Shown here one piece after another: positions 1,866-33,182 of a stretch of DNA of 33,518 bases. The notes below the pieces were generated by a model. The model did no database searches, was not told the DNA's origin, and worked only from the letters and a program-made list of their open reading frames with translations. The position numbers and the translations under genes were made by a program. Within the stretch, counting starts at the first letter, position 1. Every line of letters begins with the position of its first letter. The stretch is from a virus: positions 1 through 33,518 of IMG/VR virus record IMGVR_UViG_3300047480_000629, one strand, 5' to 3'.

Positions 1866-2516
1866 TTATTTGTTAGTCAAGTATGTCCTGTTTAGCATCG
1901 TGTGATTATGATCAGTTGGTCCCCAGTCTCCGTCTGGGTGGAAAGCAATTACAGTCATAGACTCAGATTCTGTTGAGAATCTATGATTCTCTCTTTCCTC
2001 AATACAGAACATCATTCCTTCTTTTAATTCTACATTCTTATGCATATTACTCGCGGTCTTTGTCCAAGCTATGCCATTGCCCTTTGCAACCACACCAAGT
2101 CTAATGCTTGGGTGAATATGAAAAGATTGATTTACACCTGCAGGGAAGTGTAACATGCTTAAGCTTGGATCACCCAACCTTGGTGGATAAACTAGTAGAC
2201 TATCACTGCATGAGTCAATGTATACTAATCTTCCGCTTTCTTCAATAGGTCCACCAACCATGTTTTGACCTTTAAACCCAAGACGAGTGAATATTACTGT
2301 TTCACCCGTTATTTTTATAGATGAGTTCTTACCAATCCAAAAACAAAAGTATTGTCCTTCTTTAGCAACGTTTCCATTTGGGAAATGTGCTTCTCCATTT
2401 AAAATGTACCCATATGCTGTAGAGTATGGAGTACACTCAAATGTTGAGTTACTTACTTTATTAGCATGACATGGATACATTGTATCTAGTGCGTCAATTA
2501 CATTACCTAAAATCAC
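1866..2516 (-). CDS. Bicupin-like protein
   Basis: Two consecutive cupin-like halves can be seen (about residues 20-85 and 115-205). The second has a candidate metal triad: HIHP (about residues 133-136) and a later His in ENHRF (about 178). The classic Glu of cupin motif 1 is not evident, so catalysis is uncertain. GTG at 2516 is chosen because GGAG lies 7 nt upstream; a TTG at 2522 would sit only 1 nt after it. The gene overlaps the end of the asparagine-synthetase-like gene by 14 nt, tying it to the maturation-like cassette. Cupins include oxygenases, isomerases and simple sugar or small-molecule binders. Here it might be another tailoring enzyme of the cassette or a metal-binding accessory. 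Confidence 0.7.
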   Translation of the reverse strand: MILGNVIDALDTMYPCHANKVSNSTFECTPYSTAYGYILNGEAHFPNGNVAKEGQYFCFWIGKNSSIKITGETVIFTRLGFKGQNMVGGPIEESGRLVYIDSCSDSLLVYPPRLGDPSLSMLHFPAGVNQSFHIHPSIRLGVVAKGNGIAWTKTASNMHKNVELKEGMMFCIEERENHRFSTESESMTVIAFHPDGDWGPTDHNHTMLNRTYLTNK

Positions 2517-3633
2517 GCTCAATCTCCAAAAATGTGTTTTCCCTGTTTATGAACTCATCATCCAGTGGATAGTGTTCATAGGCGACCATATCTCTATTTA
2601 GCAAAAATGGCAGAGACTTTTGCTTAGCCAAGTTAGTTAAACTGCCAATCTTTGGCTTCTTATAGTAGCTCTTATCTCCATTGAAGTCAAGGATGTAATC
2701 TTTAGTCACATACTTGACGCTATCTTCGCTATCCTTAACCAACTTATCGGTATTGTTTAGTGACCAGAGCTGAAACTCTTTAGGCCAATAAAATGTGGTA
2801 TAGTTTTCTTCTATCTTAATGTTTGCCCTATTCTTAGAATAAGGCAATATACGTACATAGACTGACTGCCATTTATTTGTAAAGTTTATCCACCATAAGA
2901 ACTTATACAACGTATCGATCTTTATAGGCGCTGCATCACATAGCCTCTTAAACATATTGTAATAAGCACGTGCATACTTCTTATAACCGTCTTGAAGTCT
3001 TCCATGCATCCAATTAATTATCTCTTCTTCGGCATCATCTAATGATGTAAACAAGAAACTATATGGTCTGTATGCAGTAAACTTAACTGTCACCTGAGAA
3101 CCAAATAGTTGGTCTGCGTTTTCACCAGATATCATCAAGTAATCATCATTCCCAAGGTAATATGGAAACCTAAAGCTAGACACGCACTCAAACTTCTTTA
3201 TGATATACTGATCATAAAAGTTCTGGTTTTCTTGTATAGAATGATCGCTCAATAATACCACTACATGTTGCTTTACATCTTTTTCTGTACAATTTTTTAG
3301 CAACGCACAGAGAATACCTGTAGAATCAATTCCACCGCTATACATCACAGCTAGCTTCTTATTCGAAGCTTTGGCCTTTTCCATGACTTGTATAGCTCTC
3401 TCATTCATTATCTTGTCGAATGACTTATCAAACTTGACAAACTCAGGCATCTTGAGATGGTCCATGACTTCAGCTTTAAGCGGAGTCGTGAACGTATTAG
3501 TCCTATCAACTACACTAATATTATTTGAGAATAGTTGATAGTAACCGCCCATTGCATGACCACCTGGGATTTTATCTCTTAGGTGATGGTATGCAGGGTT
3601 TACAAATATATCATAGCTATTATAAAAAATCAT
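2503..3633 (-). CDS. Asparagine-synthetase-like ATP-pyrophosphatase, no glutaminase domain
   Basis: The PP-loop motif SGGIDS is at residues 99-104, and SGENADQLFG (169-178) matches the conserved 'SGEGADELFGG' block of AsnB-type synthetase domains. At 376 residues it lacks the N-terminal class II glutaminase: the protein does not start with the catalytic Cys2. It thus resembles synthetase-only relatives of AsnB, which adenylate a carboxylate and pass it to an amine; the lasso-peptide macrolactam synthetases and beta-lactam synthetase belong to this superfamily. Its start overlaps the preceding gene by 4 nt (ATGA). Sitting downstream of a radical SAM enzyme and a Cys-rich protein, it may form an amide bond on that protein. 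Ordinary asparagine or amidotransferase activity with free ammonia is the alternative. Confidence 0.85.
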   Translation of the reverse strand: MIFYNSYDIFVNPAYHHLRDKIPGGHAMGGYYQLFSNNISVVDRTNTFTTPLKAEVMDHLKMPEFVKFDKSFDKIMNERAIQVMEKAKASNKKLAVMYSGGIDSTGILCALLKNCTEKDVKQHVVVLLSDHSIQENQNFYDQYIIKKFECVSSFRFPYYLGNDDYLMISGENADQLFGSQVTVKFTAYRPYSFLFTSLDDAEEEIINWMHGRLQDGYKKYARAYYNMFKRLCDAAPIKIDTLYKFLWWINFTNKWQSVYVRILPYSKNRANIKIEENYTTFYWPKEFQLWSLNNTDKLVKDSEDSVKYVTKDYILDFNGDKSYYKKPKIGSLTNLAKQKSLPFLLNRDMVAYEHYPLDDEFINRENTFLEIERDFR

Positions 3634-4370
3634 ATATTGCCATACTCAATGATTTCAGTCTTAAACTTATCCAATAAATCCTGTAAGTTTTCTAGCTTCT
3701 CTTCTCTTTTAACTAAATCAGTGTACTTCATCCTCAAGTTTTCATTCTCTGCCAAACGAGCTATATGTGTCTCATACTTAAACATGATACGCTTTGCAGC
3801 TTCAACAAAACTAATATCCACACACTCAGCATAGCCAGTCGTCATAGGGTACTTCAATAATTTATCTTCTAATATATTCTTTTCGAGGATCTCTTTTGCT
3901 TCTAAATACTTTGCAAAATAAGTATCCTGAAAGCCATGAGAGTCTCTGTTAATAAGTCTTCTAACTTTATCTAGCTCATCATGCATGATATCCATCAACG
4001 CAGCTTTTTGATTGATTAAGATATGTGAATACAGCTCTTCTTCAGATTGTATATTAGGAGAATCATTCCACCCGCTGCCATCATCTTTTACACGAATTCT
4101 CCAACACTTATTTCTCATAAATGAAGTGCGTTGTATGCTATTCATCCCATCAAACACATATGAATAAACTACTTGTTTGTCAAAGTCTGATAGTGCTCTA
4201 ACGCTTGATGCATGGTTACAAACAGCTAATATCCTCTTATCACCAGATGCAACTAAAATATTAGTATTGTTTGAGTGCAAAGCCATGTCTAATAGTTTAT
4301 CACTTTTATGAATAAAGTGAGGTTGTAGACTCTTATAATAAGAATCAATCATTGCATCATCTAACATCAA
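3630..4370 (-). CDS. Conserved cassette protein, paralogue of its upstream neighbour (246 aa)
   Basis: No family is firmly recognised. It shares with the next gene an N-terminal 'YYKSLQPHF' type start (SLLPHF in the other), a central helix, 'YFAKYLEAKE' (YFVKYLEAKD) and a C-terminal 'KYTDLVKREE..L..LLD' helix. The C-terminal half (Tyr..Lys..EA, then Tyr-Pro, then a long helix ending in E.R.KY..LV) recalls a helical domain seen in phage fiber-associated proteins and chaperones; that is a resemblance only. No cysteine motif, signal peptide or membrane segment. It overlaps both neighbours by 4 nt. Roles as substrate chaperone, scaffold or fiber assembly protein for the cassette are possible. Confidence 0.75.
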   Translation of the reverse strand: MMLDDAMIDSYYKSLQPHFIHKSDKLLDMALHSNNTNILVASGDKRILAVCNHASSVRALSDFDKQVVYSYVFDGMNSIQRTSFMRNKCWRIRVKDDGSGWNDSPNIQSEEELYSHILINQKAALMDIMHDELDKVRRLINRDSHGFQDTYFAKYLEAKEILEKNILEDKLLKYPMTTGYAECVDISFVEAAKRIMFKYETHIARLAENENLRMKYTDLVKREEKLENLQDLLDKFKTEIIEYGNI

Positions 4371-5047
4371 TATTCCCTCTCAGAAGCATACGCTTTTAAG
4401 ATATCATTTAGTCTACTAATATCATTTTCTTGTTTAATCATATTAGTATACTTTATACGAGCGTTCTCAAATTCTGCTACTTTAGCCATCCTAATCTCAT
4501 ACTGTAATATCACATTCTTTGCATCGTTCAATGAGTGAATAAACAAATACTTTCTTTCTTTACCATCAACAAAGTCTTTGGCTTCTAAATACTTTACGAA
4601 GTAAACTTCTTCTTGTGATGGTAAGTATCTGCTAACAATCCTGCTATTTCGTTTTACACGAGATAATATAAAGTCAATTGCAGCTACCTTTTGTACATCC
4701 AATATAGCTTCATATACTTCATCAAGCGTATTGAAGTCATACGACTCTCGCCAATAATATAAGTTATTCTTTTCTTCTAATCTCCACTTCCAACATTCAT
4801 TCATTGGAAATACAACTGGATCATCGAAGTTGGTTTCTGGCAATATGCCAAATTCCATAGTCCCGCGCTGTATTGCTCTTAGCGACTTGTAGAAAGAACT
4901 AAGAGCAATGATCCTGCCATAGCTATCATTGCTCATTAATATATCAAAGTTGCTTTTTAGGTGTAAGCTTACATAATGATCTGTTATTCTTACGAAGTGT
5001 GGCAACAATGATCTATGGTATTCATCAATCTCATTCTTCGTTAACAT
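4367..5047 (-). CDS. Conserved cassette protein, paralogue of its downstream neighbour (226 aa)
   Basis: This is the second member of a tandem pair. Shared blocks with the 246-residue neighbour are SL(L/Q)PHF near the N-terminus, a CW(K/R) segment in the middle, YF(V/A)KYLEAK(D/E), and KYT(N/D)(M/L)(I/V)K near the C-terminus, in the same order and spacing. The two have diverged strongly elsewhere, which suggests an old duplication with separate roles or a heterodimer. The start overlaps the stop of the 214-residue gene (TAATG). The protein is soluble, with a helical C-terminal half. Function unknown; it belongs to the cassette by coupling and position. Confidence 0.75.
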   Translation of the reverse strand: MLTKNEIDEYHRSLLPHFVRITDHYVSLHLKSNFDILMSNDSYGRIIALSSFYKSLRAIQRGTMEFGILPETNFDDPVVFPMNECWKWRLEEKNNLYYWRESYDFNTLDEVYEAILDVQKVAAIDFILSRVKRNSRIVSRYLPSQEEVYFVKYLEAKDFVDGKERKYLFIHSLNDAKNVILQYEIRMAKVAEFENARIKYTNMIKQENDISRLNDILKAYASEREY

Positions 5048-5691
5048 TATACCGTTTGAATTTCCATCTGTTCAATACGCAATGCAGCAGGAGGTTTGAT
5101 TCCAGTTGTTAGATAATCATTAATTCGTTTTCTAAAGTCTGCTACTACCATATCATGCTTACTTAAGTCATCATATACAGCTTTTGGAAGTGCAGATATG
5201 AATGGTATATAAGCATCATCATACACGATATCTTCCACATATGCAGTTACATTCATCCCATCTTTACCGACGACCGAGGTAAACTTGCGCTTCAAGAAGT
5301 TGTGATGGCGCACTTGTACAACTCCTGGAATCTTAGATATTCTATCAACCAACTTCTGTAAATTATTCGTTTCAATATTCAAGTGCGCTGGAGCAATATC
5401 TAAAGTAAAATAATCATCTAGTTGAGATCTCATCCTATTAATTAGTTCTAAGTGTTTATCAGGATTTTCAGCATCATCTATTGAAATCAATTCAACAAAT
5501 CTTGGATATGCATCTGATCCATCTTTTCTTTGTACTAAACAACTTATGACATAACCTTCAGAACCAAGTTTGTCTTTTAAAGATTTCTGTAAAATCTTAT
5601 GACAACGAACTTGTACAATTCTACTATCAAGTGTAGATAATCGCTCTAGTAAGTGTGGAAGCATTTCAGAGTTAATGTCAATTGCAATCAT
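5047..5691 (-). CDS. Internally duplicated cassette protein (214 aa), unknown
   Basis: The protein is two copies of one domain of about 100 residues (1-101 and 102-201). Matching blocks are IVQVRCHKIL/VVQVRHHNFL, DKLGSEGYVISCLV/SVVGKDGMNVTAYV, SDAYPRFVELI/DDAYIPFISAL, and MRSQLDDYFTLDI/FRKRINDYLTTGI. Each unit reads as alpha/beta with a HxxLxx basic helix. The start overlaps the radical SAM stop by 4 nt. The fold is not recognised; a substrate- or leader-binding partner for the radical SAM enzyme is an attractive but unsupported idea. No signal peptide, membrane segment or metal motif is seen. Confidence 0.75.
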   Translation of the reverse strand: MIAIDINSEMLPHLLERLSTLDSRIVQVRCHKILQKSLKDKLGSEGYVISCLVQRKDGSDAYPRFVELISIDDAENPDKHLELINRMRSQLDDYFTLDIAPAHLNIETNNLQKLVDRISKIPGVVQVRHHNFLKRKFTSVVGKDGMNVTAYVEDIVYDDAYIPFISALPKAVYDDLSKHDMVVADFRKRINDYLTTGIKPPAALRIEQMEIQTV

Positions 5692-7118
5692 TTTACTTCT
5701 GCCTTAGTGTATACTTCGATACCATCAAGTTCAGTCTTCACACTAATTGACTTGATAGGAATTATCTTTCGTTTCTTTTCTTCGTGTTTTAATACAGTAC
5801 CAAAAATGTCTTTACGATCATCTGGCAATACATCACTATTTATGTAGTAAGGAATGTATCCTCCAGTAATCTTCTCAATCGACAATGCAAATAATGGTAT
5901 ATTATCAGAATATGCATTATCACATGTAGTATCCCATAACTCTCCATCTAAGAACATGCAAGAACCTTTGCATAGATGAAGTACTGGACAACTGGCGCAA
6001 TCTGGTCTATTCATCCAATGAGTAGCTGATTTGATAGACACGTTGTCATAATCATCTAGTGTACCAACCAAATGTGACTCACCATTCATAGCAGTCTCAA
6101 CAGCAGATACGTTTTGGCATGTAATAACACGACCTTTCATATCAATTGCTAAAACACCTGGATCATCCATTCCGCATTTTTGGCCAAGGTATTCCGAAGA
6201 AGCTTGCTTTAAGATGCCATGCGTGAAGTTATCAATCTTCTGAAGGATAGTTCCAAAACCTATTTGGCCTTGTGTTGAATATATGTCATTGAAAGAAAGC
6301 TGACGATAGTCAAAATGCTCTTTCTTCGTAGTTAAAGAATTATTGGCACCATCGATGTCATATGCATCAACAATACCGCCTTCGCCAAGAGCAACATATG
6401 GATCGCCTGTAAAGTTTACAAACCAATCATATATCTCTTTTCTGCTCTTGTTCTTTGAGTTTAACATAGAGTTAAAACTAATACGACCAAGAGGTCTCAT
6501 CAACTTATAGAATTCTAGTACAGTCTTTTTGTTTTCTTCATCTTCAAATGGATCTGGACCACGTACGCTTTGTCCAGGACCATCATGGCTGATTGAAACA
6601 TAGAATCCCATGTAGTATAACCATGCACAGATATCACGAGTTAATATAGAACCGTTAGTGATTACAGAGAACTTAGGTTTCTTCTGCCATGAAGAGAATC
6701 TATCGAGCAACGCTTCAGCAAGCGGCTTCATGGTCTTCCAATAAACAAATGGCTCACCACCCCAAAACTCAATAGACAAACCTGTTTGTTCTGAGAACTC
6801 GAGTGTGTCTAACTTGGCTAAGAAGTTATCGATGTCTTTTTTGGATGTTTCTGGAGGACGCTCAACAAACTTTTGTGAACAATAATCACACGAGTAGTTA
6901 CACGATAGACCCATTTGTATTTTTAGTTTATGGATCTTCTTAGACTTTTTTAGCGGAGCGTCTTTTGAGAACGGAACGACTTTATCGCTCGTATATTGAA
7001 TTTCTTCGTCTGATTTAAATACAAAGCCATCTTCTGACTTTAATGTATTTGTGACGTTATCATAGTAAAAGATTTTTTTGTCTTCACTATTTTTTTCTGC
7101 AAGTATTTCAAATATCAT
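5688..7118 (-). CDS. Radical SAM/SPASM domain peptide-maturase-like enzyme
   Basis: The radical SAM cluster motif CxxxCxxC is at Cys73, Cys77 and Cys80 (CNYSCDYC); the SAM-binding GGEP motif is at 120-123. The C-terminal third carries a full SPASM set: C315-X13-G-X4-C334, then C374-X2-C377-X5-C383-X3-C387 and C399, which fits the family formula for two auxiliary 4Fe-4S clusters. Proteins of this kind modify ribosomal peptides or proteins (thioether or C-C crosslinks, epimerisation) or act as sulfatase-type maturases. At 476 residues it has typical length, with about 60 extra N-terminal residues and no evident RRE domain. The gene starts 18 nt after the Cys-rich protein gene, with a weak AGG 7 nt before ATG, so that protein is the obvious candidate substrate. 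Confidence 0.95.
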   Translation of the reverse strand: MIFEILAEKNSEDKKIFYYDNVTNTLKSEDGFVFKSDEEIQYTSDKVVPFSKDAPLKKSKKIHKLKIQMGLSCNYSCDYCSQKFVERPPETSKKDIDNFLAKLDTLEFSEQTGLSIEFWGGEPFVYWKTMKPLAEALLDRFSSWQKKPKFSVITNGSILTRDICAWLYYMGFYVSISHDGPGQSVRGPDPFEDEENKKTVLEFYKLMRPLGRISFNSMLNSKNKSRKEIYDWFVNFTGDPYVALGEGGIVDAYDIDGANNSLTTKKEHFDYRQLSFNDIYSTQGQIGFGTILQKIDNFTHGILKQASSEYLGQKCGMDDPGVLAIDMKGRVITCQNVSAVETAMNGESHLVGTLDDYDNVSIKSATHWMNRPDCASCPVLHLCKGSCMFLDGELWDTTCDNAYSDNIPLFALSIEKITGGYIPYYINSDVLPDDRKDIFGTVLKHEEKKRKIIPIKSISVKTELDGIEVYTKAEVK

Positions 7119-7136: not shown

Positions 7137-7553
7137 TTAACCGCCGCAAGCATCTCCGCAAGCACATGCGCATGCACATGCACACGCACAATTATAACTT
7201 ACTGCTGAAGTCGTACAATTATATGTACATGCACAATTACAGTTTGGTTGTAACCATTGTTGCACATCACAGTTTGCACAATTAACAGAGCCAGTAATTA
7301 CACAATTAACACACTGAATGTTTCCACAGTTGCAGTTTGCTGTACAATTACCATTATTGCAATTACCTTCATTGGTGTTTTGAAAGTATGCAAACCCATA
7401 AACATTATTAATACTAGACACGGTACCTGGCTGTCTATTGACAGGCTTAGTAATATTCTTCACAAAGCCCAAACTAGATGAAAAGTTTGGTGCATTTTGT
7501 GTTTCTCTATTAATATCCTCTAATGATATCGAACCAGTATTTTGTAGTGTCAT
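7137..7553 (-). CDS. Cys-rich virion-type protein, candidate substrate of the radical SAM enzyme (138 aa)
   Basis: Residues 1-62 have no cysteine and contain GSISLEDINRE and a later VSSINNVYG, matching the 'ISLsDI..E....SL..lyG' motifs common at the start of phage tail and fiber proteins. Residues 65-136 hold 19 cysteines, many as NC, CxC or CxxC, and residues 122-132 are a strict alternation of six Cys and five Ala. Neutral Asn, Ala, Thr and Gly fill the rest. There is no secretion signal. It sits between an S74 fiber gene and the radical SAM gene. The inference is a virion-anchored protein with a C-terminal Cys domain that is crosslinked enzymatically or binds metal. The start ATG lies 2 nt before the next gene boundary, so coupling to the fiber gene is likely. 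Confidence 0.85.
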   Translation of the reverse strand: MTLQNTGSISLEDINRETQNAPNFSSSLGFVKNITKPVNRQPGTVSSINNVYGFAYFQNTNEGNCNNGNCTANCNCGNIQCVNCVITGSVNCANCDVQQWLQPNCNCACTYNCTTSAVSYNCACACACACACGDACGG

Positions 7554-7555
7554 GA

Positions 7556-8650
7556 TTAATTAAGTTTTGCTTCAATTGCTTCTACTCTTGCAATAAGTTC
7601 GTTAAGCGCTTGTGCCAACAATCCACCCATATTTCCATAAGCAACTGATAGAGTTCCATCTGAAGCTACTTTAATAAGTTCTGGAGCTTTAGATTGTAAT
7701 TCTTGAGCTACAACACCGATCTCTCTTTCTTCACTGTCTAAGCGTTTGTAGTAGACACCTCTGAAAGACTTAATAATATCTATAGCACCTTTAATAGTCT
7801 CGATTTCTCTCTTTAGTCTACCATCAGAGAAACCAGTAACGTTACCGACCATAACCAAGTTACCACCTGGTTGGATCTCACCAGCTTTTGCTCCATTTGC
7901 AGCAAAGAACATGTAACCATCACCACCCCAATACAAACCTGTATCTTGTGCACCATCAGATGCAAATGCTAGCGATGGAGAAGCAGCAGTACCATTGGCT
8001 AATAATAACTTGTTTTCAATCGTAGCATTTTGTACAGTTATAGAAGAACTAGTTAATATCTTAGAACCACTTAAGCCTGTAATCCAAGATGGATCATTAT
8101 ATCCACCAGATTCACTAACTGGTGTGTATCCTAATGCAGCTTCAATATCTGAAGCTTCTATATCCATAGCTTCAGTTAATCTGCCATCACCATCAACTGT
8201 AAACTTTGTGAACGTTCCTGGATTTACTCCAGTTGGGTTAAGCGCTAATATTCCGCTTACGTTTGCAGAACCATCAAATGATACGTCCCATGTAGCATCG
8301 CCTGTGATAGTGATGATACGAGCATTTCTTAATTTTGTTGCAGTAGAAGCATTACCATTTAAATCGCCGATTACGTCAGCTATCAAATTTCCAGCTATAG
8401 TTAAATTACCATTGGTGTCCAGTATTAGTTCTGGTCCATCACCGCCGTCTACGTTAACCTGAAATATTTCTCCTCCAGTAGACAAAATGCCACCAATAGG
8501 AGTACGATCGCGTACTTCATTGATAGCATTTATTATACTTGTGGAAGTCGTTTGAAGAGAAGCTTGATCACCAATCAAAGAGCTAATCTGATTAGTCTTA
8601 ACTCTCCATTGTTCAAATGTATCTTCTAAACTTACGTTTATGACGGACAT
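7556..8650 (-). CDS. Tail fiber protein with S74 intramolecular chaperone domain
   Basis: The N-terminus has TFEQWRVKTN, a motif frequent at the base of phage tail fibers, followed by repeat-like segments (DLNGNASTATKL, GDATWDVSFDGSANVSG) typical of trimeric fiber shafts. The last 90 residues form a Peptidase_S74/intramolecular chaperone domain: SDGRLKREI places Ser275 and Lys280 in the S-x4-K spacing of the self-cleavage dyad, followed by GVVAQELQ..APEL and a C-terminal coiled coil. Such domains trimerise the fiber and then cut themselves off just before the Ser. The gene lies 11 nt downstream of the 78-residue coiled-coil gene. Mature fiber would be about 274 residues if cleaved. Confidence 0.9.
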   Translation of the reverse strand: MSVINVSLEDTFEQWRVKTNQISSLIGDQASLQTTSTSIINAINEVRDRTPIGGILSTGGEIFQVNVDGGDGPELILDTNGNLTIAGNLIADVIGDLNGNASTATKLRNARIITITGDATWDVSFDGSANVSGILALNPTGVNPGTFTKFTVDGDGRLTEAMDIEASDIEAALGYTPVSESGGYNDPSWITGLSGSKILTSSSITVQNATIENKLLLANGTAASPSLAFASDGAQDTGLYWGGDGYMFFAANGAKAGEIQPGGNLVMVGNVTGFSDGRLKREIETIKGAIDIIKSFRGVYYKRLDSEEREIGVVAQELQSKAPELIKVASDGTLSVAYGNMGGLLAQALNELIARVEAIEAKLN

Positions 8651-27826: not shown

Positions 27827-28017
27827 CTCTCTCACACGATAGTCTAGAGAACCACTTTAGAGTAAACTTTATCATGATGCAGCACCACAAGTATAGCTTA
27901 ACAGAGTTAAATGAGATGTTGCCGTGGGAGAGAGAAGTCTACATCGCTATGTTAGTTGAACACATCAAAGAAGAGAACGAGAGAATTAAACAGCTCAACA
28001 ACAAGTATAAGGTATAG
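27820..28017 (+). CDS. gp51: gp51-like domain, translated as -1 frame extension of gp26 (65 aa)
   Basis: From the slippery site the -1 frame reads RVALSHDSLENHFRVNFI, then QHHKYSLTELNEMLPWEREV, YIAMLVEHIKEENERIKQL and ends at TAG 28015-28017, 2 nt before the tape measure ATG. The central 'SLTEL..M.PWER..Y..ML' segment resembles the gp51 baseplate hub catalyst of T4-like marine phages. With the shift the fusion would be 300 residues. An independent start at ATG 27874 or 27877 would give 46-47 residues but has no Shine-Dalgarno, and the coding-like sequence begins well before these codons, which favours the fusion. Confidence 0.75.
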   Translation, partial: RVALSHDSLENHFRVNFIMMQHHKYSLTELNEMLPWEREVYIAMLVEHIKEENERIKQLNNKYKV

Positions 28018-28019
28018 AG

Positions 28020-29663
28020 ATGGCAAAGAAGAAATCTGGAGAACACAACCCAAAGACCGAGGGTGGACCAGACAGCGTTCGTGGTAACCTTAGTGCTCTG
28101 ATCATTGAAGTTCAGAAGACTAATGCTGCGCTCGAGTCAGACAGCGCGGTACTAGACGTACAGACACGTGCGCTGACAAACATCAATGACGTGATTGTAG
28201 ACGTATACCAACACGTCAAAGCGATCGCAGAGACCATGGCAGGTAATAAGCTCAAGGAGCTAGAGGATGCCAAGGAACGTCAGAAGCAGATGGAGGACTT
28301 GGTCGAGGCTCTGAAGGAAAAGAGAAAGCCAGATGAGAAGCCAAAGAAGGACGGCGACTTCTCATGGTTAGGCCTTGCTGCATCGCTGATCACTGGCCTA
28401 GTCGCTGGTGGTATGGCCTTCATCGCTAACTATGTCAAAGGTCTACAAGCTCTCTGGTCAGGGATCGCGAAGGCACTCAAGATCGATGGTATCATCATGA
28501 AGCTGTTTAGTGCGGTCAAGAGCGGGTTCATGTTCATAGACGACATCATAGGCAAAGGCTTCAATAAGATCTGGTCGTTTGTATCAGGTCTATTCGATGG
28601 TAAGATGTTTGCAGCCATCACAGGCTTCTTTAATAAGATCATCACAGGCTTCGGTAAGTTGACTGGTTTGACTGGCATCATGGACGAGTTCGGTAAGCTA
28701 TGGCAGTCAGTGAAGGGTGTATTTGGCATGGTGTTTGGCCCAGAGTCATCGCTCGCTAAGTTCTTCGGCTACTTCACAAAGGGAGGCGGCGGCTTCCTAT
28801 CCTACTTCGATGACCTACTTAAGTTCTTTACCCCATTAACTTCCTTCTTCAAGGCACTAGGATCTGTACTCGGTAAGATCGCTCTGCCACTACAAGTCAT
28901 CATGTCCATCTTTGATACTGTGACTGGTGCATTGGACGGGTGGGAGAAGACACAAGGCGGTTTCATGGACAAGTTGTTCGGTGCGATCGCAGGCGGTCTA
29001 TCAGGTCTATTGAACGGCCTGATCGGCGGGCTGTTAGACCTACTCAAGGGCGGGTTGTCCTATATTCTCGAGTTCTTTGGCATGAAGGATGCAGCTGCAT
29101 GGCTAGACTCCTTTAAGTTCACAGACATGATCACCAACATAGTGACGAGCATCTTTGACTACATCAAGGGCATCATCAACGGAGTCATCGGCTTCTTTCA
29201 AAAGTCCCCAGCCCAGATGATGGAGAGCATAGCAAACGCGATGACCTATGTAGCAGACGCAGCGAAGAACGTATTGAAGTCATTGCTACGCATGGTCCTA
29301 CCAGACCCAAGCAAGGGCGTAGCACAGAAGCTAGCGTCGAAGGCCATTCCAGATGCTGTATATGAGTTCGCAGGCATGGATCCAAAGACAGGAGCCATCA
29401 AGGAAGAGGCACCAGCACCAGCTCCTATGACAGCACCACCTGCACAAGCGCTACCTCAGGCACAGGCTGTAAATACTCAGGCACAGGCAGGACTACAAGA
29501 AGCAGCAGCCACGGCCCAGGCAGAGGGCATGAAGTTGAACCTACGTCCAAGCCTACAGAGACCACAGGGAGGCGGAACGGCCCCAGCAGTACCGATCTCT
29601 TCATCCACGACCAAGTGGGACCCAGAGGACGCCATGGGCAGAGGCATGTACGTAGGCGCATAA
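28020..29663 (+). CDS. gp29: Tape measure protein (gp29-like)
   Basis: A 547-residue protein (T4 gp29 590) with a charged coiled-coil N-terminus to about residue 110, then a long run of hydrophobic amphipathic helices (GLAASLITGLVAGGMAFIAN and onward, residues about 115-420) and an Ala/Pro/Gln-rich disordered C-terminus. Tape measure proteins set tail length and later leave through the tube. Placement directly after a gp26/gp51 frameshift gene is the conserved chaperone-tape measure order. Codon third positions are clearly richer in G/C than in the minus-strand genes to the left. The start is 2 nt after the preceding stop, with no strong ribosome site, so translational coupling is likely. Confidence 0.82.
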   Translation: MAKKKSGEHNPKTEGGPDSVRGNLSALIIEVQKTNAALESDSAVLDVQTRALTNINDVIVDVYQHVKAIAETMAGNKLKELEDAKERQKQMEDLVEALKEKRKPDEKPKKDGDFSWLGLAASLITGLVAGGMAFIANYVKGLQALWSGIAKALKIDGIIMKLFSAVKSGFMFIDDIIGKGFNKIWSFVSGLFDGKMFAAITGFFNKIITGFGKLTGLTGIMDEFGKLWQSVKGVFGMVFGPESSLAKFFGYFTKGGGGFLSYFDDLLKFFTPLTSFFKALGSVLGKIALPLQVIMSIFDTVTGALDGWEKTQGGFMDKLFGAIAGGLSGLLNGLIGGLLDLLKGGLSYILEFFGMKDAAAWLDSFKFTDMITNIVTSIFDYIKGIINGVIGFFQKSPAQMMESIANAMTYVADAAKNVLKSLLRMVLPDPSKGVAQKLASKAIPDAVYEFAGMDPKTGAIKEEAPAPAPMTAPPAQALPQAQAVNTQAQAGLQEAAATAQAEGMKLNLRPSLQRPQGGGTAPAVPISSSTTKWDPEDAMGRGMYVGA

Positions 29664-29686
29664 AGAGGATATAAGGAGAATAAAGC

Positions 29687-30037
29687 ATGAGCATGTACGT
29701 ATTAAAGAACAGCGGGACTGAGGTCGTCATCAAGGCCTACACGAACGTGTCTAACGGTGAGACGATCACCTTCAACCTATCAGAGGCGGCCGAGAACGGT
29801 GAGACCGTAACAGGACTAAGCTTCAAGGAGTTATTCTGGACTACTCGACCAGGCAAGCACGTCACGATCCAGAGGGTCGAGGCAGAGGACGACCTAGAGG
29901 GTGGTTACTACTTCTCGAACGTAGGCCACTTTCACTTTAATAACTTCGTAGACTCTACCTACTCACAGTACCCGATCAGGTTTACTTTCGATGCACCTGG
30001 TACGGTCATCATTCGAATGTATAAGACACTAGCCTAA
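29687..30037 (+). CDS. Hypothetical protein (116 aa), possibly virion associated
   Basis: The product is a beta-rich domain with no membrane segment, cysteine or known motif; segments TVTGLSFKELFWTTRPGKHV, GHFHFNNF and DAPGTVIIRMYKTLA suggest a small jelly-roll or Ig-like fold. A strong AAGGAG lies 8 nt before ATG 29687. It follows the tape measure by 23 nt. It is unrecognised by name; small beta proteins beside tail genes are often decoration or hub accessory proteins. Confidence 0.75.
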   Translation: MSMYVLKNSGTEVVIKAYTNVSNGETITFNLSEAAENGETVTGLSFKELFWTTRPGKHVTIQRVEAEDDLEGGYYFSNVGHFHFNNFVDSTYSQYPIRFTFDAPGTVIIRMYKTLA

Positions 30038-30090
30038 TGCACGACGCATTGGCTTATGTTGATATCCCATACATCATAAAGGACTATAGC

Positions 30091-30606
30091 ATGAACAGAC
30101 GCCCATTGAGGTTCGTCACCCGTGAAGAGGAGTGGGAGTTGATCCAGAGGCTAGACGCCGTGGTCGACTCCACTGACTTCCACCCATTGACCACAGCCGT
30201 GATCATGGCATCCCCAGACTACTCAGCTACATTTGCTATGCACCTAGCCCACTCATGGTCTCGTGCAGGTGAGATGCTACCCATCATCCCAGTCGACGTG
30301 ACATATCCAGACGAGGAGGCGACCCCATATATCCAGGCAATGAGGGCGCAGAAGCCCCAGATCACCCAGTATAAACGCTTAGTGCTAGTCGAGGCAGGCA
30401 TCATCCGAGGCGGGAACTGGGAATGGATGCTAAATATACTGACCGATGAATGGGGATACGATAGGTCTCAGGTCACCCTAGTAGCAGCAATGGAGAACGT
30501 CCATAGTCGAGTCAAGTCAGACTACGTCGGTAAGTACTATGATGACAACAAAGAAGAGCTGATGTTCTACTTTGAGAAGTACAATAAGCACTGGCCTATC
30601 AGATGA
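30091..30606 (+). CDS. Conserved phage protein, weak phosphoribosyltransferase-like pattern (171 aa)
   Basis: ATG 30091 is chosen because AAAGGA sits 7 nt upstream; ATG 30037 (overlapping the previous stop as TAATG) would add 18 residues but has no ribosome site. A Rossmann-like order is visible: TAVIMASPDYSATFAMHLAH, then ITQYKRLVLVEAGIIRGGNW and SQVTLVAAMENVHSRVKSDY. The VLVEAGIIRGGNW stretch recalls the PRPP loop of phosphoribosyltransferases, but the paired acidic residues are incomplete (E-A), so activity is doubtful. The protein is acidic and soluble. It overlaps a tiny membrane-peptide gene by ATGA. Confidence 0.75.
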   Translation: MNRRPLRFVTREEEWELIQRLDAVVDSTDFHPLTTAVIMASPDYSATFAMHLAHSWSRAGEMLPIIPVDVTYPDEEATPYIQAMRAQKPQITQYKRLVLVEAGIIRGGNWEWMLNILTDEWGYDRSQVTLVAAMENVHSRVKSDYVGKYYDDNKEELMFYFEKYNKHWPIR

Positions 30607-30680
30607 CCTGGGAAGACGCCAAACGCCTGCGCATCACCATATTCTGTATAGCAATGGTAATACTCGCGCTACTCATATAA
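30603..30680 (+). CDS. Tiny membrane peptide (25 aa)
   Basis: ATG overlaps the previous stop (ATGA), and the product is a charged start (MTWEDAKRLR) followed by one hydrophobic helix ITIFCIAMVILALLI to the stop. It is the last gene before the plus-strand terminator. Small single-span peptides are common in phage genomes; function is unknown. Coupling and the clean amphipathic-to-hydrophobic layout support it, its brevity argues for caution. Confidence 0.5.
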   Translation: MTWEDAKRLRITIFCIAMVILALLI

Positions 30681-30705
30681 TCAGGCATATAACCAACAGG
30701 CAGCC

Positions 30706-30734
30706 GGGCACCCCAAGCGGGTGCCTTTTATTTT
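30706..30734 (+). terminator. Rho-independent terminator of the plus-strand tail operon
   Basis: GGCACCC (30707-30713) and GGGTGCC (30719-30725) form a 7-bp GC-rich stem with a 5-nt loop CAAGC, followed by TTTTATTTT. It lies 26 nt after the last plus-strand gene and would also help insulate the convergent minus-strand genes. Confidence 0.9.
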
Positions 30735-30945
30735 GCTGTAAACAACTGAGAATTATCTGTAATTATCTGGAGAAAGATAATTGGGCCAGGGGGAAAATTT
30801 CTGAGGATCAACCTGGAGAAATACTACCATCCCCGGGGGGAATTCCATGATTTTCGTAACGGATGCGATCGGTTTAACCAACAGGGTAACCAATAGATGG
30901 TCTCCTACATATATGGAACCTTAGTATAAGGTTCCCTGTAGGCTG
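30735..30945. other. Convergent intergenic region with short repeats, no supported gene
   Basis: Between the plus-strand terminator and the last minus-strand gene. It holds two direct AATTATCT copies (30751-30758, 30761-30768) with an inverted AGATAATT (30775-30782); two CTGGAGAAA copies (30767-30775, 30813-30821); a CCCCGGGG palindrome (30831-30838); and TAACCAACAGG at 30875-30885, identical to 30690-30700 and nearly repeated at 30887-30897. No convincing ORF. It could be a regulatory or replication-related region. Confidence 0.6.
30904..30942. repeat. Long two-part inverted repeat (hairpin)
   Basis: An inner perfect 9-bp stem, GGAACCTTA (30915-30923) and TAAGGTTCC (30927-30935), has a 3-nt loop GTA. 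An outer 6-bp stem, CCTACA (30904-30909) and TGTAGG (30937-30942), encloses it. It begins 3 nt beyond the stop codon of the last minus-strand gene, so it may end or protect that transcript; there is no U-tract in either direction, so it is not a standard terminator. Confidence 0.75.
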
Positions 30946-31059
30946 CTAAAACCAGCCGTGCCTATCCCACCATATCAGGAACAGTGTCACACAGATGCCG
31001 ACTAGCTGTAAGATACAGAACGCCGCCAGTACATATATGACTACTTGTTCCGTATCCAC
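30946..31059 (-). CDS. Small membrane protein (37 aa), GTG start
   Basis: GTG at 31059 has AAGGAG 8 nt upstream, an ideal ribosome site lying inside the end of the preceding gene, which it overlaps by 19 nt. The product is a short acidic start (MDTEQ), one long hydrophobic helix (VVIYVLAAFCILQLVGICV and onward) and a basic, aromatic end (WWDRHGWF). Unknown function; single-span phage peptides can affect host membranes or lysis. Last gene of the minus-strand right-arm operon. Confidence 0.65.
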   Translation of the reverse strand: MDTEQVVIYVLAAFCILQLVGICVTLFLIWWDRHGWF

Positions 31060-31250
31060 TCTATGATCTCCTTAGCCTGACTCAGGTCTGACCGATCCAC
31101 TGCCTCGTCTATCATGTCTAACTGAGTGGTGTGCATCTCATTCAATACACGGTCTATGGTCTGCCTCTTACGCCAACCACTGATATGGTGGTATGGCTGG
31201 CTCCATTTATATGTGATCTGTCCGTTGATCGGTGGTCTGGATTGGTTCAT
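31041..31250 (-). CDS. Small helical protein (69 aa), unknown
   Basis: ATG 31250 is preferred: GGAG is 7 nt upstream and the ATG overlaps the stop of the previous membrane-peptide gene (ATGA). A GTG at 31274 would add 8 residues. The product has a basic N-terminal half (QPYHHISGWRKRQTIDRV) and an acidic helical C-terminal half (DEAVDRSDLSQAKEIIEWIR). No membrane segment. Not recognised. Confidence 0.65.
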   Translation of the reverse strand: MNQSRPPINGQITYKWSQPYHHISGWRKRQTIDRVLNEMHTTQLDMIDEAVDRSDLSQAKEIIEWIRNK

Positions 31251-31384
31251 CGATTGACTCCGTCCTTGATACACTGCATTGCTAGGTTAGGTGATACCAT
31301 ACCGACCACCACGATGATCACTCCCAGGAGGCACATGTACATCCGTGCCTGCACCAGGTCCGTCACTGCATTGAATAGCTTCAT
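31247..31384 (-). CDS. Small membrane protein (45 aa)
   Basis: The ATG overlaps the stop of the gene before it (AAATGA) and its stop overlaps the next ATG. The product has a polar start (MKLFNAVTDLVQARM), one hydrophobic helix (YMCLLGVIIVVVGMV) and a short tail with a Cys. A GGAG at 31389-31392 lies just upstream of the ATG. It is in an unbroken chain of overlapping genes, which supports it despite its size. Function unknown. Confidence 0.6.
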   Translation of the reverse strand: MKLFNAVTDLVQARMYMCLLGVIIVVVGMVSPNLAMQCIKDGVNR

Positions 31385-31590
31385 TTAAACATCTCCTTCT
31401 TGATGTACCGAGTGATGTACTCGTGCTGCTCGACCAGGTCTTCCATGTCCAGGTCCATGTCTAAGTTGTCCCTGACGAATTCATCGACCAGCTCCTCGAC
31501 CTGGCTGAGCAGCGACTGGGCGAGCTCTTTGTTTCTTTGCTTCTGTGTTACAGGGAAGTCGATCGGGTTGTCTGTGTTTGTAGCATGCAT
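31381..31590 (-). CDS. Small acidic helical protein (69 aa), unknown
   Basis: GGAGGAG lies 8 nt before ATG 31590. The product is strongly acidic with heptad-like helices (AQSLLSQVEELVDEFVRDN, then LDMDLDMEDLVEQHEYITRY) and a basic tail (IKKEMFK). It follows the ATPase gene by 19 nt and overlaps the next membrane-peptide gene. It may be a partner or inhibitor of a neighbouring protein, but no homologue is recognised. Confidence 0.7.
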   Translation of the reverse strand: MHATNTDNPIDFPVTQKQRNKELAQSLLSQVEELVDEFVRDNLDMDLDMEDLVEQHEYITRYIKKEMFK

Positions 31591-31609
31591 CTTCTTACTC
31601 CTCCTTCAA

Positions 31610-32536
31610 TTAATGGGTCAACACGTAGGTTGCAAGGTCACGGTAGTCTTTCGGGTTGGCTGCACGGATCTTCGCGACAGAGATGAGTGTCCGGAGGCTG
31701 ATCTCCTTGCACTCATCCTTGATCTCACGGATCAGGGACAACGCATCGGCCTTGATCTCAGTGGTGTATTCAGGCAAGAACTCGTCTGAGGCAGCGATGT
31801 GCTCCATACGATCGATCTTCTGGTCATCGGTCATGGACAGGTCAATCATCATGGACCGACTACGGATCGCCTGGTCGATCTTGTCCTGGTCCATGTTGCT
31901 GATGAACACTACGCGACCCTTGAACTCGAAGCTACGGGGTAGGTCATCGTCCTTGCCGAAGGACTCAGCGTTCCAGCTGATGATACGCTTGCCGTAACTA
32001 TCCAACGCACCCTTGAGCAAGTTAAGGGCGATCGGGTCTTTGAGGATAGAATCACAGTCATCGAACACCACAGTCGCGTTTTGGTTCTCGAACAAGGTGC
32101 GGTACAAGCCTTTAGCTGTAGAGTAGCCTTTGATCGTGACGTACACCTTAGACATCTGGATGATCGATCCAGCTGGCAGGCGTTGGATCAACTCGTTGTA
32201 GTCCTGGAGACCATTGGCCTTCAGGGTCTTCATTACAGTGTATGTCTTACCCAATCCACCTTGACCGGTGATCACTGTCGAGGGTTGGACACCAGTGGCG
32301 ACCATGCCGACGATCTTCTCCACGAAGCCAAAGCGTTGGTTGATGCCGAACTTCTCAGAGGTGGCGGGCTTCTGCATCGCCTCGATCTCCTTGAACGATT
32401 TCTTCTCGCCAGTGATCTGCTTGAACATGTACTCGATGTACTGCTGCTTGGTAGTGGTGAACTTCTGACCGTTGATAGCACACTTGAACTTGCCTTGAGC
32501 CTTGTCGAAGCTGATAATCACTGATACGTTCTGCAT
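31610..32536 (-). CDS. AAA-type ATPase
   Basis: From ATG 32536 (AAAGGA 9 nt upstream) the product has 308 residues. Walker A GQGGLGKT is at 91-98, Walker B VVFDD at 156-160, a sensor-1 like VFISN at 210-214, and Arg225/Arg227 in AIRSRSMMIDL as an arginine finger. A small lid domain follows (240-300). An in-frame ATG at 32656 lies inside a terminator hairpin, so it is not the start. Standalone AAA proteins of this kind occur in many phages without known role; DNA transactions or protein remodelling are possible. It heads a transcript that begins after the terminator. Confidence 0.85.
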   Translation of the reverse strand: MQNVSVIISFDKAQGKFKCAINGQKFTTTKQQYIEYMFKQITGEKKSFKEIEAMQKPATSEKFGINQRFGFVEKIVGMVATGVQPSTVITGQGGLGKTYTVMKTLKANGLQDYNELIQRLPAGSIIQMSKVYVTIKGYSTAKGLYRTLFENQNATVVFDDCDSILKDPIALNLLKGALDSYGKRIISWNAESFGKDDDLPRSFEFKGRVVFISNMDQDKIDQAIRSRSMMIDLSMTDDQKIDRMEHIAASDEFLPEYTTEIKADALSLIREIKDECKEISLRTLISVAKIRAANPKDYRDLATYVLTH

Positions 32537-32599
32537 ACTGAGATTTCCTTTGTTATTCATCATGGATACCATTCTACAGCAGTGGGTGGCCGTTGTACA

Positions 32600-32623
32600 T
32601 AGTAGTCTACTAAAACGGTAGAC
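32600..32623. promoter_or_regulatory. Palindromic operator-like site upstream of the ATPase gene
   Basis: TAGTAGTCTACTA (32600-32612) is a perfect 13-nt palindrome, and GTCTAC (32605-32610) pairs with GTAGAC (32618-32623) across a 7-nt spacer. On the minus strand TTGTCT and TACTAT flank the second repeat as poor -35/-10 elements with 15-nt spacing. It lies between the upstream terminator and the ATPase start, where a regulated promoter is needed. The role is inferred. Confidence 0.4.
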
Positions 32624-32652
32624 AATAAAAAAGCCAATAGAATCATTGGCTT
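32624..32652 (-). terminator. Rho-independent terminator (minus strand)
   Basis: On the minus strand AAGCCAAT (32652-32645) and ATTGGCTT (32638-32631) make an 8-bp stem with a 6-nt loop, followed by TTTTTTATTG. It ends the transcript of the 61- and 89-residue genes and separates them from the ATPase gene. Confidence 0.88.
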
Positions 32653-32730
32653 GCACGGGTCTCCATGGCTCTGGGACTACTGAAAATAATCATTTATTTC
32701 ACCTGGTGGTATATTCGCGGCCTTCACTTA

Positions 32731-32916
32731 CTACCTCGTAGTAAGTTCTCCATCGGTTGCTACCATGTCTTGTAGGTGGGTGGTGAGTTCGTGGATAACC
32801 CTCTTGTCTAGGACTACCATCACGTCCTCGTACCTATGGAGTTGGATAGCAAACATCTCTCCCCTATCATGGATACTGATATACGGGTTGCCGTTTGGTT
32901 CGTTGATAGTGATCAT
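32731..32916 (-). CDS. Small hypothetical protein (61 aa)
   Basis: The ATG overlaps the previous stop (ATGA). The product alternates strand and helix (PYISIHDRGEMFAIQLHRYE, VMVVLDKRVIHELTTHLQ) and looks like a small folded alpha/beta protein without cysteine or membrane segments. It is the last gene before the terminator at 32624-32652. No homologue recognised. Confidence 0.7.
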   Translation of the reverse strand: MITINEPNGNPYISIHDRGEMFAIQLHRYEDVMVVLDKRVIHELTTHLQDMVATDGELTTR

Positions 32917-33182
32917 CTGTTACCTAATCCTACTCTTGCGTAACCCAATGAAGACTTGATGTGTTTGCGAGATTGTTTACGATCTCTCTTTGCCGCCCAG
33001 TACCCCTTCATGTACTCCTTCTTGAATGCTGAGAACGTGAGGAGTGGGTTATCCTCGAGTGCTTTCTTATATGCATTACAGAGTGTGGTGGCTGATGGTC
33101 CTGCGTTCCTGATCCCTATCCTTGCCTTGGTCGCTGTCTTGTTGTCTGGGTTTAATGATTGCTTGCTCGCTATGCCTACCAT
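32913..33182 (-). CDS. Small basic protein (89 aa), unknown
   Basis: ATG 33182 is chosen since AAAGGAGAGG lies 7 nt upstream and the start overlaps the end of the lipoprotein gene (ATGGTAG). ATG 33209 would add 9 residues with a weaker site. The product is rich in Lys/Arg (MKGYWAAKRDRKQSRKHIKS) with an Ala/Thr helix before it (ATTLCNAYKKALEDNPLL), suggesting nucleic-acid or protein binding. Not recognised. Confidence 0.68.
   Translation of the reverse strand: MVGIASKQSLNPDNKTATKARIGIRNAGPSATTLCNAYKKALEDNPLLTFSAFKKEYMKGYWAAKRDRKQSRKHIKSSLGYARVGLGNR

Follow-up and report, generated by a model that had tools for sequence, protein, structure and literature searches.

Apart from isopeptide cross-links and cleavage, the maturation of phage structural proteins is mostly regarded as free of exotic covalent chemistry. 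In phages with a gp38-type adhesin, the adhesin gene stands directly after the distal long-tail-fibre gene. Cross-linking of cysteines, on the other hand, has been described for the ranthipeptide systems. Passages of one source (PMC8326336) include Asn and Asp among the known non-alpha thioether acceptors, give a link from Cys23 to Asn20 at the beta carbon for NxxcA and one from Cys to Asp at the beta carbon for freyrasin, and describe the auxiliary cluster as open in CteB and fully ligated in anSME. In the CC-licensed PMC literature, with subscription papers and preprints outside the search, we found no description of radical SAM modification of tail fibres. Here, we analysed a 33.5-kb virus record (33,518 nucleotides, hereafter the window) which, in our judgement, probably encodes a small tail-fibre-tip protein with an (Ala/Asn-Cys)n run and, in the next gene, a dedicated radical SAM/SPASM maturase that most likely forms thioethers.

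The proposed substrate (P0001; 7137-7553, minus strand) starts with ATG and has 138 amino acids, of which 19 are Cys (residues 65, 70, 74, 76, 81, 84, 92, 95, 105, 107, 109, 113, 122, 124, 126, 128, 130, 132 and 136). The preliminary description had placed all 19 within residues 65-136 and had reported a Cys-Ala alternation at 122-132; both observations are borne out, the alternating stretch CACACACACAC consisting of six Cys and five Ala. The 27 other genes of the window contain 56 Cys in 9649 residues (0.58%), and against this background the binomial probability of at least 19 Cys in 138 residues is 1.7e-20, so the Cys richness is not a matter of chance. A simple DNA repeat was rejected as the origin of the run, in which TGT/TGC and GCG/GCA/GCT codons are mixed. 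The protein may consist of an adaptor domain and, after it, a Cys-rich shaft that ends in the (Ala/Asn-Cys)n run. Its N-terminal domain (7368-7553, minus strand; residues 1-62) has no Cys, was modelled with a pLDDT of about 70-87 per ten-residue block across residues 1-60, and has a weak fold likeness to a gp38-type phage protein (E 1.2). The Cys-rich core (7215-7364, minus strand; residues 64-113) and the alternating run NCACACACACAC (7158-7193, minus strand; residues 121-132) follow, the latter being an (x-Cys)n tag in which x is N, A or D across the family. The predicted structure of the Cys region is mostly below pLDDT 50 and so is not usable as a model, and a PDB fold search with this region gave nothing better than E 6.7. 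PDB matches to a profile of the Cys-rich alignment (two designed proteins and one cytochrome, all weak) were read as spurious. The N-terminal 57 amino acids of a relative had no match among 50,697 phage records. The "phage fibre motifs" that had been seen at the N-terminus are backed only indirectly: Pfam, PHROG and NCBIfam gave no match for any part of the window protein, the gp38 profile included in the Pfam search. The virion-type assignment stands on context, namely the gene order, the domains to which homologues are fused and the fact that other tagged proteins match tail fibres.

The Cys-rich gene sits between a radical SAM/SPASM gene (5688-7118) and a tail fibre gene (7556-8650, minus strand; PF13884 1.5e-9, phrog_11011 3.3e-29), whose product ends in a Peptidase_S74 chaperone and which occupies a gp37-like position. 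It had been remarked that so many cysteines would be unusual unless metal-bound or thioether-linked, and this has held up as a lead: the next gene encodes a SPASM radical SAM protein, with a predicted fold nearest to a thioether synthase and a genetic tie to the Cys run. The other genes of the window are seldom kept (the PP-loop gene in 14, the S74 fibre in 20 and the cupin in 4 of 84 distinct loci of mixed retrieval), and we take the enzyme together with the Cys-run protein to be the conserved unit. Two further loci (L380 and L394) encode this small Cys-tailed protein together with an enzyme; at L380 the gene preceding the Cys-tailed protein ends S74-like by eye, giving a gene order like that of the window. 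Downstream of the enzyme (window 1866-5691) lie a cupin protein and a PP-loop ATPase-like protein (AsnB/TilS-like, weak), and the proteins at 3630-4370 and 4367-5047 look by eye like tandem relatives; the genes of this region are retained at few related loci. Elsewhere in the window, G+C climbs from about 0.34-0.43 to about 0.48-0.52 over 28001-33000.

We collected homologues from 78 IMG/VR contigs found by the Cys-rich protein, from enzyme-retrieved loci and from the window. Altogether 125 loci hold a homologue, corresponding to 85 distinct ORFs with 14-31 Cys each (median 18). The cysteines are not freely replaced, which had been named as a finding that would speak against the earlier claim: the mean majority fraction, taken over the 85 ORFs, is 0.91 for the 17 Cys columns of 64-130 and 0.66 for the other columns, and positions 65, 92, 113 and 126 are Cys in all 85. 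In 68 of the 85 ORFs the alternation extends over at least four Cys. The strictness of the Cys-Ala pattern, in contrast, is not what is conserved; the kept feature is an x-Cys alternation of variable length in which x is Asn, Ala or Asp. In runs of four or more (n=588), x is Asn in 377 (64%), Ala in 155 (26%) and Asp in 39 (7%), Asn and Asp thus accounting for 416 of the 588 positions. The length of the run varies widely among the homologues, and the Cys-Ala run of the window reads as a local variant of (x-Cys)n. What follows the run is a short tail (as in the window), a domain of about 170 amino acids starting SKIIC, an S74 chaperone (L027 and L086) or a Hint-like domain (L069; E 1.2e-4, below the cut-off of Pfam). 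S74 and Hint domains are self-cleaving, and the mature chain may therefore end in the Cys run. One homologue (L096, 311-1402) carries a long glycine-rich insert that separates the N-terminal domain from the Cys core; the insert resembles poly-Gly adhesins by eye, and Pfam gave no match.

The putative modifying enzyme (5688-7118, minus strand; 476 amino acids), which adjoins the Cys-rich gene, matches PF04055 above the Pfam cut-off (1.4e-8), phrog_1802 ("radical SAM domain-containing protein", E 6e-60) and the short SPASM domain model TIGR04085 (31.7 bits, cut-off 27). Its best full-length NCBIfam models, all far below cut-off, belong to maturases of peptides or proteins, with QhpD first (5.9e-20), then PapB (1.4e-19), the geopeptide maturase and CcpM. 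Scores fell short of the curated models for ranthipeptide maturases (PapB, 70.5 bits of 340; SCIFF maturase, 43.2 of 425) and for anSME (TIGR03942, 46.6 of 349.45). The CxxxCxxC motif of the radical SAM cluster (Cys 73/77/80; 6879-6902, minus strand) is invariant in 60 of 60 aligned rows. The seven-Cys SPASM motif is CX9-15GX4C, CX2CX5CX3C, C, and the window enzyme carries both this motif and the radical SAM CxxxCxxC; in the same alignment of 60 rows the SPASM cysteines 315, 334, 374, 377, 383, 387 and 399 (5922-6176, minus strand) are invariant, with no conserved eighth. Full ligation in anSME is due to an eighth Cys, and seven SPASM cysteines without it would be compatible with an open auxiliary cluster as in CteB. 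From the features tested, the enzyme is best described as a SPASM maturase, though one outside the known ranthipeptide maturase models. An AlphaFold2 model built from 60 relatives (pLDDT 91) was matched best, by VIA-align Z, by CteB (5why, Z 23.7, rmsd 3.4, 325 aligned; 5wgg, 22.4), with ChlB (20.2), anSME (19.3) and TigE (17.9) as further close folds and the epimerase EpeE and SuiB also among the structural matches. The fold alone leaves the chemistry unfixed, because ChlB, anSME and TigE are close too and because anSME and ChlB lead in the ranking of Foldseek itself. Ranthipeptide systems have an N-terminal RRE and a leader peptide. In the phage enzyme, the alignment with CteB begins at model residue 1, and before residue 80 the N-terminus has three strands, no helices and no Pfam match.

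We propose that the maturase recognises and binds the (x-Cys)n segment itself, since unrelated fibre proteins share only that segment. With a Cys thiolate docked on the open auxiliary cluster, a hydrogen would be abstracted from a residue near each Cys by the 5'-deoxyadenosyl radical, and an S-C bond (thioether) would form; repeated along the run, this would yield a ladder of staples. Such a ladder could give a rigid, reduction-resistant fibre tip or could lock fibre chains together. We hold the thioether chemistry of the predicted maturase to be fairly probable. Relative to Cys, Asn stands at -1 in 71% and at -3 in 34%, with a base of 22%. The NxxC spacing is present throughout NCNC repeats and an NxxC ring would fit Asn at -3, yet the signal at -1 is stronger, and we know of no thioether that joins directly neighbouring residues. 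Counting against thioether formation, the Ala of the window run has no side-chain functional group such as Asn and Asp have; in Ala-Cys runs another acceptor might be used, or these runs may act as spacers. Alternatively, the enzyme could work on the run by other chemistry, such as epimerisation (giving an alternating D/L helix), conversion of Cys to formylglycine or carbon-carbon links. A two-residue alternation would suit modification of every second residue, and the structural matches include anSME, EpeE, SuiB and ChlB. Against this, the best sequence models, QhpD and PapB, are Cys cross-linkers, the best fold by Z is CteB, Cys is the conserved member of each pair while x varies, and there is no conserved eighth SPASM Cys, whereas anSME is fully ligated in the passages of PMC8326336. 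We therefore regard these other chemistries as unlikely, though they are the most serious of the alternatives to thioether formation.

The association of the Cys run with the enzyme was examined from both sides. All 78 contigs found via the Cys-rich protein have the enzyme, a few of them cut at the contig end. On the enzyme side, 153 loci came from two overlapping retrievals, and 51 of these were distinct and had at least 4 kb of flank on each side. A same-strand Cys-rich homologue or a qualifying x-Cys run was found in 50 of the 51, and an opposite-strand run in none; by the run criterion alone the figures were 43 on the same strand and 0 on the opposite one. A loose run test (three x-C) was dropped for these stricter tests, 24 of 44 loci having scored on the opposite strand. 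The sole well-flanked enzyme locus without a Cys-run protein is L154, and NCNC-stop is missing from its entire 81.7-kb record as well; the enzyme locus L116 does carry the Cys-rich protein. L154 encodes a long repeat protein that is RCC1-like by eye. The pairing of Cys run and enzyme is thus strongly supported as close to obligate, and we consider it very probable that the two are enzyme and substrate. At two loci (L393, 7788-10269; L398, 6543-9024) two radical SAM ORFs adjoin, the second being a poorer match (E about 1e-27); a second modification is possible there.

A natural contrast is provided by the SKIIC domain, which also follows poly-Gly (IMG/VR contigs) or poly-Pro/poly-Arg (Synechococcus phage SynMITS9220M01) in place of the Cys run. 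There are 62 distinct ORFs with this domain, 55 of them with a Cys run before it. The enzyme is present at 53 of these 55 loci; a 54th (L341) has a fragment cut at the contig end, and the remaining one (L336) is a 6.9-kb fragment without the enzyme. Where poly-Gly or poly-Pro/Arg replaces the Cys run, the enzyme is present at 0 of 7 loci (Fisher 1.6e-8 for run versus enzyme, on related rows, since six of the seven run-less ORFs are close relatives and the seventh is the cyanophage). Nor was any enzyme found in the whole records of 12 run-less IMG/VR loci (six distinct ORFs and six contigs folded into them), and the SynMITS9220M01 record gave a weak partial enzyme match (E 2.2e-4). In this cyanophage protein (L307, 4675-6525), the SKIIC-like C-terminal domain is immediately preceded by more than 30 consecutive prolines and then eight arginines; here, too, a segment of extreme low complexity fills the slot of the Cys run. 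The other run-less proteins (L353, L354, L355, L358, L371 and L375) are large, end in poly-Gly and the SKIIC domain, and have no radical SAM enzyme; L353 and L371, the two poly-Gly proteins scanned, contain DUF4815. These results bear on a further explanation, in which the cysteines at the fibre tip ligate a metal or an iron-sulfur cluster, or become disulfides once the cell has lysed, with only indirect help from the radical SAM enzyme. An extended strand with Cys at every second residue can act as a chelator, and metal-binding phage tips are known (the His-X-His iron sites of T4 gp37, and lambda gpL). However, a dedicated enzyme of the peptide-maturase type would then be superfluous, yet run and enzyme are present and absent together, and the widely varying length of the run is unlike a fixed cluster site. 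We give this explanation about one chance in ten.

Distant enzyme loci without a homologue of the Cys-rich protein often have fibre-like ORFs that end in NCNCNCNC or similar. We scanned DNA blindly for the eight-residue C-terminal tag NCNCxCNC-stop, a pattern of 27 bases. The scan returned 54 contigs, 47 of them with the enzyme (42 in the stored stretch and five in the whole record), mostly on the downstream side of the tag; the seven contigs without it end 72-2441 nt downstream of the tag. A control pattern with Tyr for Cys returned 2 contigs, 0 with the enzyme. On several contigs (e.g. L189 and L203) two or three different proteins have the same tag end, an indication that the enzyme recognises the tag rather than a common leader. 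Many tagged proteins are tail fibres: among ten that were scanned, six have PHROG tail-fibre matches with E <1e-6 (best 5.7e-213, L150) and a seventh, the second small protein of L189, has one at 1.1e-9, while two small ones have weak unnamed PHROG matches and one has none. At L189 (7111-8282), and also at L140, L171, L180, L200 and L203, three small tandem genes each end in an (NC)4-like tag, and these are perhaps the chains of one hetero-trimeric tip. A second scan with the window-type NCACACACAC gave 20 contigs, 15 with the enzyme (some fragments); of the five without it, four are not fibre-like and the other (L391) ends 1403 nt past the tagged ORF. The tag scan of bacterial genomes gave eight stretches, one with the enzyme, in a betaproteobacterial metagenome-assembled genome (MAG), and a second with a partial enzyme match of 21 bits. 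Four of the 20 NCACACACAC matches and most of the eight bacterial matches were left out as fibres, being short, repeat-like or antisense frames. Among 369 genomes of that betaproteobacterial class the enzyme was found at E 1e-60 in that MAG alone, and plasmids gave no enzyme match at E 1e-20.

The tagged proteins also bear on the idea of a phage-borne, ranthipeptide-like natural product, that is, a small bioactive peptide with no part in the virion. A small Cys-rich protein next to a SPASM maturase is indeed the standard RiPP layout, but the tag lies on tail-fibre proteins, the Cys core is found in fusions with S74 and Hint, the Cys-rich gene comes after a fibre gene, and exporter or peptidase profiles were matched by none of the ten window genes profiled, the S74 chaperone apart. 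A natural product therefore seems very improbable. Although metagenomic contigs have common ancestry, we scarcely credit the view that the two genes are neighbours by chance or shared descent without a functional tie, because a scan on only 27 bases reached unrelated proteins, the genes differ in order and spacing from locus to locus, the other neighbours in the window are not retained (the PP-loop gene in 14 of 84), and the run-less SKIIC contrast and the same-strand counts at enzyme loci contradict it. Returning to thioether stapling, we judge it somewhat better than an even bet that a large group of tailed phages uses a leaderless, tag-reading radical SAM maturase on (x-Cys)n segments at or near fibre C-termini, and that in some cases the stapled end is exposed when S74 or Hint cleaves itself. 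The pairing suggests that many phages chemically staple their fibre tips. If this is true, virion maturation would have a new layer in the form of a radical enzyme dedicated to fibre tips, and a covalently cross-linked receptor-binding tip would be a class of protein modification for virus particles. Such an enzyme could account for the survival of fibres outside the cell or for their hold on a receptor, and would provide both a function for phrog_1802 and a short genetic tag for site-specific stapling.

Compared with described systems, the window gene resembles the T4-like gp38 adhesin or gp37 tip in standing directly after an S74 fibre gene and in its weak N-terminal fold match, and in other phages poly-Gly takes the place of the Cys run ahead of a shared C-terminal domain; unlike gp38, however, the window protein has no gp38 profile match. 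The isolated Achromobacter phages JWF and 2-1 come close as well. They encode a fibre-like protein (JWF gp028) in which a Hint domain is preceded by an NCNCDCNC run and, two genes on, a radical SAM protein about 45% identical (JWF gp030), but the fibre differs from that of the window and Hint follows the run. Their records annotate fibre and enzyme separately and draw no link between them. The QhpD substrate, unlike the phage protein, is a bacterial enzyme subunit with few Cys and without repeats. In passages of PMC8326336, QhpD, the radical SAM enzyme of quinohemoprotein amine dehydrogenase, is similar in that Cys is cross-linked to Asp or Glu in an enzyme subunit and not in a secreted peptide; it also gives the top NCBIfam score for the phage enzyme, although below cut-off. 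anSME shares the targeting of Cys by a SPASM enzyme and a close fold, and the JWF homologue is annotated as anSME in KP202971.1, yet its auxiliary clusters are fully ligated in the same passages (PMC8326336), whereas the phage enzyme has only seven SPASM Cys. The ranthipeptide systems (SCIFF CteA/CteB, freyrasin PapA/PapB and NxxcA/NxxcB) offer a parallel: a SPASM radical SAM enzyme adjoins a Cys-rich substrate, the phage enzyme is nearest to CteB in fold and finds the PapB model below cut-off, and the Asn and Asp acceptors given in those passages (PMC8326336) match the x residues of the phage run. They differ in that the phage substrate is a fibre-tip protein and the segment an (x-C)n repeat, and a common leader peptide is not evident in the phage system because unrelated proteins share only the tag. 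The phage system is, in our assessment, a variant of ranthipeptide-type maturation with a new sort of substrate.
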